A stretch of DNA of 64,000 nucleotides, taken from assembly GCF_000738775.1 (NCBI RefSeq), contig NZ_JPOC01000020.1, positions 62,001 through 126,000 on the forward strand, read 5' to 3'. The stretch's first letter is position 1, and each line of letters opens with the position of its first letter. Positions 25,251 through 27,628 of this stretch are shown here, in pieces. Origin of the DNA: Prescottella defluvii (lineage in GTDB: Bacteria; Actinomycetota; Actinomycetes; Mycobacteriales; Mycobacteriaceae). The position numbers and the translations under genes are program-made. Below the pieces are notes generated by a model. The model was not told where the DNA came from and searched no databases. It was given only the letters and a program-made list of their open reading frames with translations.

Positions 25251-26057
25251 ATGACTGATTCCGATGCGGTACCCGTGATCGATCGTTTCGTTCGATACGA
25301 CGTCGCCGACAGTTGTGCGACGCTCACGCTGGACTCGCCGCACAATCGCAATGCGATCTCGAGCCGGCTGGTCGGTGAACTGCTGCAGGGCTTGGCCGAT
25401 GCCGCGGCCGACGACGGGGTGCGTGCCGTCGTGCTCACCCACACCGGTGGCACGTTCTGCGCGGGTGCGGACCTGTCGGAGGCGAGTGGCGCCGCGGACG
25501 CCGACCCGGCGGAACTCGCGGCCGAGCGGACCCGTCAGATGGTCGGTCTGTTGAGGGCGATCGTGGAGCTACCGAAACCGGTGATCGCCCGTGTGGACGG
25601 ACACGTCCGTGCCGGTGGGATGGGTCTGGTGGGGGCGTGCGACATCGTCGTCGCCGGTCCGGACAGCACGTTCGCGTTGACGGAGGCTCGTCTGGGTCTG
25701 GCGGCGTCGATCATCTCGCTCACGGTGATTCCGCGGCTCACGGCGCGTGCGGCCGGACGCTACTTCCTCACCGGCGAGAAGTTCGGTCCGCACGAGGCGG
25801 AGGCGATCGGTCTGGTCAGCGAGGCGGTGCAGGACGCGGAGGACACTGTCCGGGAGTTGGTCGCGACTCTGTGGAAGTGCTCGCCGCAGGGGTTGGCCGA
25901 GTCCAAGAAGCTCACGACGATGCGGATGCTCGAGGACTTCGATCGCTACGGGGATGTCCTCGCCGCGCAGTCCGCGGCGCTGTTCGGATCGGCCGATGCG
26001 GTCGAGGGAATCACGGCGTTCATGCAGAAGCGGCGGCCGTCGTGGGTGCCCCAGTGA
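25251..26057 (+). CDS. Enoyl-CoA hydratase/isomerase family protein
   Basis: A 268-residue crotonase-fold protein: the oxyanion-hole segment GGTFCAGADLSEA lies near residue 65 and HVRAGGMGLVGACDIVVAG near 118. In this gene context it probably hydrates the carboxylated enoyl-CoA, the LiuC/AtuE role, although a generic beta-oxidation hydratase is possible. It begins 10 bp after the second dehydrogenase and is followed by a hairpin, ending the operon. Confidence 0.87.
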   Translation: MTDSDAVPVIDRFVRYDVADSCATLTLDSPHNRNAISSRLVGELLQGLADAAADDGVRAVVLTHTGGTFCAGADLSEASGAADADPAELAAERTRQMVGLLRAIVELPKPVIARVDGHVRAGGMGLVGACDIVVAGPDSTFALTEARLGLAASIISLTVIPRLTARAAGRYFLTGEKFGPHEAEAIGLVSEAVQDAEDTVRELVATLWKCSPQGLAESKKLTTMRMLEDFDRYGDVLAAQSAALFGSADAVEGITAFMQKRRPSWVPQ

Positions 26058-26088
26058 TGTCCGACCGCAGTGCCGACACACGGATGCG

Positions 26089-26110
26089 CCGTGACCCGGA
26101 CGGGTCACGG
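26089..26110. terminator. Bidirectional terminator between convergent genes
   Basis: CCGTGACCCG (26089-26098) pairs perfectly with CGGGTCACGG (26101-26110) around a 2-nt centre. It lies 31 bp after the hydratase stop and 16 bp beyond the stop of the minus-strand 42-residue peptide gene, so it can end both transcripts. Confidence 0.65.
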
Positions 26111-26126
26111 CGCGGTCCGGGCATTG

Positions 26127-26255
26127 TTACTTGCCCAGGCCCTGGAACGCGTCGAGCGAGCCGGAGAAGAAGTCCAGCGCCTTGAGCAGGTTGGAGGCGT
26201 TCGACGCGAAATCCTTGACGAAGTCGAAGTAGGGGATGAAGTCTGCAGAACCCAT
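26127..26255 (-). CDS. Small amphipathic peptide, candidate PorA/PorH-type channel protein
   Basis: This gene encodes 42 residues with no signal peptide: it starts MGSADFIPYFDFVKDFAS and ends DAFQGLGK. Aromatic and aliphatic residues alternate with Asp/Lys/Ser so that the middle (about 8-38) would form an amphipathic helix, with a net acidic charge. Size, absence of a leader, Phe/Asp/Leu/Ser composition and FF motif resemble the 40-60-residue PorA/PorH cell-wall channel peptides of Corynebacterium. AGGAG sits 8 nt before the ATG, and a hairpin follows the stop, so it looks like an independent, well-translated gene. It could instead be a different secreted or membrane-active peptide; homology is by pattern only. 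Confidence 0.6.
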   Translation of the reverse strand: MGSADFIPYFDFVKDFASNASNLLKALDFFSGSLDAFQGLGK

Positions 26256-26358
26256 GGAAAGTGCTCCTGTGTGAGTGGATCGGGAGGAAGTGGGCCTTCC
26301 CTCACAGGAATTAGTAGCGGCCGCAACGCGGTTCGGCAATCGAGATGTGACTAAGGAC

Positions 26359-26377
26359 ACCCTAATTTGGGTATTAT
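26359..26377 (+). promoter_or_regulatory. Inverted repeat and -10 element upstream of tetR
   Basis: ACCCTAATTTGGGT (26359-26372) is a near-palindrome with arms ACCC/GGGT. It abuts TATTAT (26372-26377), a plausible -10 for the TetR gene at 26447. The site is in the 191-bp divergent spacer between tetR and the 42-residue peptide gene, so it could affect both. The remainder of the spacer shows nothing else clear. Confidence 0.4.
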
Positions 26378-26446: not shown

Positions 26447-27085
26447 ATGCGAGCACCGCAGCAGGACCGGAGCCGGCTGACCCGGCATCGCCTCCTCGAG
26501 GCAACCGTCGACTGTCTGGCCGAGTTCGGTTGGTCGGCCACGACGGTGGCCGTCGTCGCGCAACGCGCCGGCGTCTCCCGTGGCGCCACGCAGCATCACT
26601 TCCCGACCCGCGAGGATCTCATCACCGCAGCGCTCGAGTTCATGTTCGACAGCCGGATGGAGCAGGCGCGGCGTGAGGCGACGGAGCTGCCGGACGGTGC
26701 GGGCCGGACCGAGGCGGTGGTGGCGCGGCTCGTCGACTACTACTCGGGCTCGCTGTTCAAGGCGGCGCTGCAGGTGTGGACGGCGGCGGCCGCCGACGCG
26801 GAACTGCGGGCGCGGGTCCTCCCGCTCGAGGACCGGTTCGGCCGCATCGCGCACCGCACCGCCGTCGAGAGTCTCGGCGTGGACGATTCGAACCCGACGG
26901 TCCGACGTCTGGTCCAGGCGACGCTCGATCTGGCGCGCGGTCTCGGGCTCGCGGACGTCCTCACCGACGACTCGCGACGTCGGGCCGAGATCGTGCGGTG
27001 CTGGGCCGCCCAGCTCGACTCCGCGCTGTCACCGCTCGACGCTCGACGCGGTGATGTGACGTCGCCCGCGTCGCCGGTGTCGTAG
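26447..27085 (+). CDS. TetR family transcriptional regulator
   Basis: A 212-residue regulator with an N-terminal TetR HTH (residues about 8-55; VAVVAQRAGVSRGATQHHFPTREDLI). The C-terminal ligand domain is unassigned. It lies just past the atu/liu-like operon; in M. tuberculosis a TetR gene (Rv2506) also neighbours the accA1/accD1 cluster, so it is a reasonable candidate repressor for the 16721 palindrome, though its own upstream repeat is different in sequence. The divergent 42-residue peptide gene is another possible target. Confidence 0.88.
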   Translation: MRAPQQDRSRLTRHRLLEATVDCLAEFGWSATTVAVVAQRAGVSRGATQHHFPTREDLITAALEFMFDSRMEQARREATELPDGAGRTEAVVARLVDYYSGSLFKAALQVWTAAAADAELRARVLPLEDRFGRIAHRTAVESLGVDDSNPTVRRLVQATLDLARGLGLADVLTDDSRRRAEIVRCWAAQLDSALSPLDARRGDVTSPASPVS

Positions 27086-27103: not shown

Positions 27104-27628
27104 ATGTCGATCAAGCTGGTGGGGGTGCTGGCGGGTGCCGCCGTGCTGGTCGCCGGCTGCGGTGCGGCGGACGGGTCCGACGAATCCGTCGGCTCGACGG
27201 TGTCGACCGTGCGCGCGACCGGTCCGTTCTTCGGTGAGTGCGGTTCGGTCACCGACGAGGAGGTGGCCGAAGCGTTCGGCGTCCCGGGGTTCGGCACGGT
27301 GGTCCGAAACTCGGTGGGCTGCGAGTGGCAGGTATCGCAGGATGCCGGGCAGGGCGGCCCGCACGTGTCGTTCTCGTGGTACCGCGGCAGTCCGATCGGG
27401 CGTGAGCGGGCCGGCAGCGAACTGATCGGGCGTCCGGCCGCCGACATCGAGATCGCGGGGAACCCGGGGTTCGAGGCGTCCGTGTCGAGCAGGCTGTGCG
27501 AACTGGGTGTCGAGTTCGGCGACGGCTTCGTGCACTGGTCGGTCGCGTACGTCGGCTCGGTACCGACGGCCGATCCGTGCGTCGCGGCGCGAGAGCTCGC
27601 GGAGCTCACCGTGGCGAGGGGGAAGTGA
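27104..27628 (+). CDS. DUF3558-type lipoprotein
   Basis: A 174-residue secreted lipoprotein with a signal peptide and lipobox LVAGC (Cys about residue 19), then a DUF3558-like domain (CGSVTDEEVAEAFGVPGFGTV ... CEW) containing four further cysteines likely to form disulfides. DUF3558 proteins are surface lipoproteins of actinobacteria with unknown role. It is paralogous in layout to the gene 2 bp downstream and probably co-transcribed with it. Confidence 0.8.
   Translation: MSIKLVGVLAGAAVLVAGCGAADGSDESVGSTVSTVRATGPFFGECGSVTDEEVAEAFGVPGFGTVVRNSVGCEWQVSQDAGQGGPHVSFSWYRGSPIGRERAGSELIGRPAADIEIAGNPGFEASVSSRLCELGVEFGDGFVHWSVAYVGSVPTADPCVAARELAELTVARGK

Follow-up and report, generated by a model that had tools for sequence, protein, structure and literature searches.

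The peptide gene and its signals

The window, i.e., the whole 64,000-nucleotide stretch of Prescottella defluvii DNA that was analysed, carries a small gene on the minus strand at 26127..26255 (stop codon included). Its reading frame begins with ATG at 26255-26253, ends with TAA at 26129-26127, and encodes a 42 aa peptide, MGSADFIPYFDFVKDFASNASNLLKALDFFSGSLDAFQGLGK, referred to here as type 1. The plus-strand frame at 26127-26255 is likewise open, and no support was found for it. The gene is convergent with an enoyl-CoA hydratase gene, ech (25251..26057, plus strand; NCBIfam PRK07827, E 5.9e-125), and divergent from a gene for a TetR-family regulator (26447..27085, plus strand; Pfam TetR_N, 2.1e-11). 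A DUF3558 gene at 27104-27628 and another ORF reaching to 28172 lie beyond tetR, and the ORFs past 28172 read, by eye, as ribosomal proteins and elongation factor G.

The ribosome site that the original prediction assigned to the gene is present as AGGAG at 26264..26268 (minus strand), 8 nt 5' of the ATG, and the inspected type-1 orthologs have the same motif, or one close to it, ahead of their start codons. An upstream alignment of 16 orthologs revealed a conserved, likely -10 element, TACTAAT (26310..26316, minus strand), and a likely -35 element, TTGCCG (26334..26339, minus strand), 17 nt 5' of it, in which TTGC is conserved. No sigma-70-type site was detected upstream of the gene by a simple pattern search. 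The block AGGGTGTCCTTAGTCACA at 26346..26363 (minus strand) is a possible regulator site, for which the 16 orthologs give a consensus of approximately AGGGTnACCTtcnTCACA; the GGTnACC copy in the block of the window is imperfect (GGTGTCC). A AGGGTnACCTtcnTCACA-like block was not seen by eye upstream of the type-1 copies that are not linked to tetR (L003, L019, and L020). A hairpin with a 12-bp stem (26086..26113, assigned to neither strand), placed in the gap where the peptide gene and ech converge, is a likely terminator, which perhaps works in both directions. It has a folding energy of -37.1 kcal/mol and a z of -4.13, and hairpins with z < -2 are found 3' of the type-1 orthologs in 14/14 genomes of the genus. 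The gene was predicted to have its own terminator; the strong hairpin bears this out in part, but it has no T-run, and a scan for T-run-based terminators at the gene found none.

The peptide has a net charge of -2 and a helical moment of 0.57, which was equalled or exceeded by 0/1000 and 3/1000 shuffles in two runs. No Sec/Tat-like signal was seen by inspection. Small porins of this size class have fewer than 60 aa, no Sec/Tat signal, and an amphipathic predicted helix, and the window peptide shares all of these features. As claimed, the gene encodes an acidic and amphipathic peptide that is leaderless by inspection, and the helix is a predicted one.

Conservation and rate of change

Relatives were sought in 14 genomes of the GTDB genus that includes Prescottella agglutinans, P. 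defluvii, and P. equi. Type-1 matches occur in all 14, and every genome has a copy that adjoins the tetR and ech orthologs, in the same place as in the window; the conservation in related genomes on which the original prediction depended was thus found. A second full-length type-1 copy is present elsewhere in 3/14 genomes. The same position between ech and tetR is also occupied by a type-1 peptide gene in Rhodococcus tukisamuensis, R. maanshanensis, and R. oryzae. Because the ortholog adjoins tetR and ech in 14/14 Prescottella genomes, the 42-aa ORF is confirmed as a real gene. The shortness of the ORF could suggest a frame open by chance, a reading whose probability is close to nil: conservation in 14/14 genomes is accompanied by a ribosome site, a promoter, and a hairpin, and the ortholog beside tetR and ech in each of them rules it out. 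Selection on the codons points the same way. Using 7 of the 9 extracted coding sequences and their first 40 codons, dN/dS was below 1 in 21/21 pairs (0.22-0.82). In the six pairs that include the window peptide, it was 0.56-0.82, a weak sign of constraint. Gly32-Ser33 is invariant among 18 type-1 peptides. The rate of change of the peptide is otherwise high. The window peptide and its counterpart in genome G013 share 52% identity with a dN of 0.39, whereas the TetR proteins of the same two genomes share 95% identity over the first 194 residues with a dN of 0.024. The peptide thus appears to be changing far faster than its TetR neighbour, as might befit a surface part.

Insertion into an older ech-tetR pair

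The gene order was compared in 80 tetR loci: 69 have ech on the same strand, no more than 1.5 kb upstream of tetR, and no peptide gene is present in 58 of these 69; the gap between the two genes is 104 nt or less in 49 of the 58. These compact pairs include those of Catenulispora and Actinacidiphila, which are not known to have mycolic acids. In the 11 peptide-bearing loci, the ech-tetR gap is 339-436 nt, with 678 nt in L078, a locus with a broken ech alignment. Given the compact peptide-free pairs and the larger peptide-bearing gaps, it is most likely that an older ech-tetR pair received the peptide gene, together with its promoter and hairpin, by insertion. TetR as the ancestral partner of the peptide is ruled out by these older pairs. 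The divergent TetR gene was proposed to share the promoter region of the peptide gene; the divergent arrangement and the common intergenic region are indeed there, but TetR is the older partner of ech. The 300 nt that precede tetR contain GGTnACC in 6/11 peptide-bearing loci and in 10/69 other loci; among random windows, 285/1600 contain it. These frequencies rule out the motif as an ancestral TetR operator.

The position between ech and tetR, kept in all genus genomes and three further Rhodococcus species, would also suit a small protein that regulates the neighbouring acyl-CoA operon or acts on its TetR regulator. Such a role is highly improbable, as 58 of the other 69 loci have the pair without the peptide, 49 of them with the short gap and Catenulispora among them, and as 3/14 genomes hold a second full-length copy of the peptide gene elsewhere.

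Distribution and types of the peptide family

A type-1 profile was built from 18 peptides (set A1), which were 18 of 27 matches; six others were moved to a type-2 set (A2), and L017, L018, and L026 were not family members. In a further set (A3), the near-identical rows L005 and L006 were omitted, and L095 and L101 were added. The profile found matches in 63/351 genomes of the family sample and in 7/31 genera, type-2-like peptides included. At E <= 0.001, matches occurred in 3/348 genomes of the order sample, each in family f1, and those in wider samples were confined to the same family. In 24 genomes of other families, two matches only were obtained, with E values of 1.14 and 1.64. A search of the PDB with the peptide sequence gave none at E <= 10, and a phage collection searched with the peptide of a relative gave no match. 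A plasmid collection gave a single match, with an E value of 2, in a record without annotation.

Three types of the peptide are present in Prescottella: type 1, the window peptide; type 2, MDLSYLSEFFGAFSDLFGALDFFSGSLG; and type 3, MGSSEILTVLNAV... Type 2 has full-length matches in 6/14 Prescottella genomes. The type-2 peptides L022, L023, L024, L025, L027, and L062 are 29-31 aa long (e.g., MDLSYLAEFFGAFSDLFGALDFFSGSLGA), with GAAAGG 5' of the start. Type 3 is present as one copy per genome in 14/14 Prescottella genomes, occurring together with type 1 in each, and has a Ser/Gly-rich tail; 13 of the 14 peptides (one was a duplicate) formed set A7. In the genome of the window, the type-3 peptide MGSSEILTVLNAVTSIVKALNSLGTASS... 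is encoded on the minus strand 3' of groEL2 (G000:C46:68918-69055), and L186 and L202 are further examples.

Similarity to PorA, PorH, and PorACj models

That the peptide may be of the PorA/PorH type was the central idea of the original prediction. The sole NCBIfam match of the window peptide is PorACj, with an E value of 0.17 and 11.9 bits against a cut-off of 28. A comparison of the 18 type-1 members with 18950 NCBIfam models, at E <= 10, touched no families other than PorACj (3/18 members, best E 0.041), porH_2 (2/18, best E 0.0097), and pora_1 (1/18, best E 0.0038), all below cut-off. In the control, 90 composition shuffles touched three unrelated families, and 0/90 touched PorACj, PorH, or PorA. 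The model search therefore singled out the expected families, but none of the 18 members passes a curated porin cut-off. Four type-2 peptides (29-45 aa) were also scanned; two touched porH_2 (0.022 and 0.03), and 4/4 touched PorACj (0.12-4.4). Among three type-3 peptides scanned, 0/3 touched any NCBIfam family. None of the 14 Prescottella genomes gave a match to the PorACj, PorH, or PorA model at E <= 0.01; the pora_1 and porH_2 cut-offs were passed only by the C. glutamicum control (both models) and by genus g3 (porH_2, 3/201 genomes). In genus g13, an 85-90-aa ORF containing FFSGSADIMSGSGD (L181, G094:C106:52844-52903) matches PorACj at 7.8e-4 and 22.5 bits, below the cut-off.

Profiles were compared with one another using 60 column shuffles per pair. 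The PorACj-type set came from 5 of the 7 genomes passing the NF038022 cut-off (L173 was omitted, and L177 was moved to the PorH-type set), and the PorH-type set of three peptides included one that falls short of the porH_2 cut-off. Both sets were drawn from genus g3, taken as Corynebacterium on its model matches and groEL2 neighbourhood, and the type-3 set comprised 12 of the 14 peptides. Type 1 matched type 2 at 97%, type 3 at 94% (over the N-terminal 23 residues only), and two peptide groups of genus g4 at 93% and 90%, with 0/60 shuffles as good in each comparison. A g4 peptide (G121) is also matched by the type-1 profile at 2.2e-7. Directly, type 1 reached 17% with the PorACj-type set (1/60 shuffles as good) and 11% with the PorH-type set. 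Type 2 is the Prescottella type with the profile nearest to these sets, at 83% and 66%, respectively, and the g4 groups reached 45-62% with the PorACj-type set and 5-9% with the PorH-type set. Type 3 compared with type 2, g4, and the PorACj/PorH-type sets gave 0.2-2.6% (0.2-0.3% for the last two), and its match to the g48/g23 set was weak, at 26.5%. Judged from these profiles, the link of type 1 to PorACj and PorH is one that runs via intermediates and not directly.

The groEL2 neighbourhood and mycoloyltransferases

In Corynebacterium, porA and porH are located between groEL2 and ppk2 (PMC3792995; also PMC5944148, each as far as the available text goes). The window gene, flanked by ech and tetR, is not part of such a groEL2-porH-porA-ppk2 arrangement. 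The type-3 gene is found 3' of groEL2 in 14/14 Prescottella genomes, at a distance of ~1.4-2.5 kb, and in several of them a hydrolase-like ORF (by eye) lies between the two. A mycoloyltransferase gene is convergent with the type-3 gene in 13/14 genomes, one of them by a partial match (L211); L208 has no match. In genus g4, tandem pairs of 47-54-aa leaderless peptides that match type 1 directly follow groEL (L217 was located by a groEL search, and L183 and L184 were located by eye). In the one g4 genome checked, G016 (L217), a mycoloyltransferase gene follows these peptides on the same strand.

The genome of the window encodes 12 PF00756 proteins, of which PDB searches covered 2. The mycoloyltransferase of the groEL2 locus has Cmt1 as its best PDB match, yet it is without the extra loop of Cmt1. 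Three Cmt1/MytC-like enzymes of the genome share 43-46% identity with Cmt1 and have most of this loop; the eight other alignable proteins are without it, and the twelfth could not be aligned. The function of PorAH requires O-mycoloylation of at least one partner, and its pore is made up of five PorA and five PorH copies, according to the accessible text of PMC12632848. The sites of this modification are mostly Ser among Ser, Gly, and Ala, and the part of PMC11066868 consulted gives no strict consensus for them, so that Ser33 as the acylation site of the window peptide is only a guess.

A small, leaderless, and amphipathic peptide could also be secreted as a phenol-soluble-modulin-like surfactant or a leaderless bacteriocin. 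This is very improbable: the neighbours examined (ech, tetR, and the DUF3558 gene) include no exporter, the sample matches at E <= 0.001 stay within one family, and the profiles lead to peptides of the groEL2 locus.

Comparison with known envelope proteins

PorACj of C. jeikeium (NCBIfam NF038022) has 40 aa and PorACur of C. urealyticum has 37 aa; both are of similar size to the window peptide and helical, and PorACj is leaderless (PMC3792995 and PMC5944148, in the portions seen). The same portions describe an AGGAG ribosome site of its own and a strong stem-loop for PorACj, as in the window gene. Unlike PorACj, the window peptide matches the profile weakly, its gene is away from the groEL2-ppk2 locus, and the Gly-Ser core is invariant in the type-1 family. 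PorA and PorH of C. glutamicum (pora_1 and porH_2) share with it the size class, the lack of a signal peptide, the helix, and the Ser/Gly stretches; type-1 relatives weakly match both models, and relatives lie 3' of groEL2. The differences are that no match exceeds a cut-off and that the possible partner of the window peptide is encoded in another locus and not in an operon with it.

PMC9233653, as far as its available text shows, characterises cell-wall channels of Rhodococcus that belong to the MspA-type porins of PF09203 (PorARr, PorBRr, and PorARc); these are encoded by genes of 540-702 bp, have a signal peptide, and are MspA-like, in contrast to the window peptide. Membership of the type-1 family in MspA is ruled out, as no Pfam family was hit at E <= 10 by any of the 18 members. 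MspA-family matches in the genome of the window lie at C79:1688-2257, C79:9162-9629, and C17:87891-88370 (G000), and at least one match over the cut-off is present in 14/14 genomes of the genus.

Proposed nature of the peptide

The window peptide is most likely a distant relative of the small Corynebacterium pore proteins, a tiny helical peptide of the outer envelope. The family matches, the profile links to groEL2-locus peptides, and the mycoloyltransferase gene adjoining these support a kinship with PorA/PorH. The original idea of a PorA/PorH-type channel survives in this weakened form: the sub-cut-off matches are specific and the shuffle control is clean, but no curated cut-off is passed, the direct profile comparisons are low, and the gene is not at the groEL2 locus. 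The best explanation of these results is that type 1 represents a branch, widespread and as yet unnamed, of the clan of small peptides to which PorA, PorH, and PorACj belong. We consider it fairly probable that the product is a leaderless amphipathic mycomembrane peptide of this kind, probably O-mycoloylated and oligomeric in the outer membrane. The type-1 gene would give rise to a leaderless, amphipathic, and mostly alpha-helical peptide, which would be exported by a route shared with corynebacterial PorA and PorH. A Cmt1/MytC-like mycoloyltransferase would then probably O-mycoloylate the serine of the invariant Gly32-Ser33 or one close by, and oligomers of the peptide would reside in the outer membrane of mycolic acids.

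A channel role is plausible by analogy, since the nearest studied relatives are channels. A ProtX-like role is equally plausible, and the presence of MspA porins in every genus genome counts against the PorA/PorH reading. The type-3 peptide of the groEL2 locus could combine with type 1 to form a small pore, similar to PorAH, in addition to the MspA-type porins. That Prescottella and related Rhodococcus have such a second pore, alpha-helical, hetero-oligomeric, composed of types 1 and 3, and acylated by Cmt1-like enzymes, is put forward as a tentative and somewhat doubtful proposal.

The same family and enzyme evidence would serve a mycoloylated mycomembrane peptide that forms no channel, namely a ProtX-like surface or anchoring protein, perhaps under phage selection. 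ProtX of C. glutamicum is very small, predicted to be helical, mycoloylated, and of little-known function (PMC9671496 and PMC5310785, in the text available). It is a likely receptor of corynephage Cog, which requires both ProtX and PorA (PMC9671496, same portion). The fast change of the window peptide relative to TetR would suit such a protein, and channels are already supplied by MspA porins. This reading is nevertheless rated less probable than the main one, as the likeness to ProtX is drawn from published descriptions and as recombinational replacement could also account for the fast change.

Significance

Our survey of the literature on PorA/PorH, the mycomembrane, mycoloylation, and Rhodococcus porins and small proteins, which covered it in part and included few subscription papers, found no report of such peptides outside Corynebacterium. 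If a pore of types 1 and 3 exists in Prescottella and related Rhodococcus, the small-porin clan would be old, widespread among mycolate outer membranes, and not confined to Corynebacterium, and phages might be exerting selection on its fast-evolving members. The peptides also bear on export without a signal, for which the route of PorACj is called unknown in the part of PMC3792995 consulted. Being short and well defined, they lend themselves to solvent extraction, mass spectrometry, and assays in bilayers. Tiny peptides linked to groEL2 and mycoloyltransferases across the family would alter the view of outer-membrane permeability, anchoring, and phage recognition.
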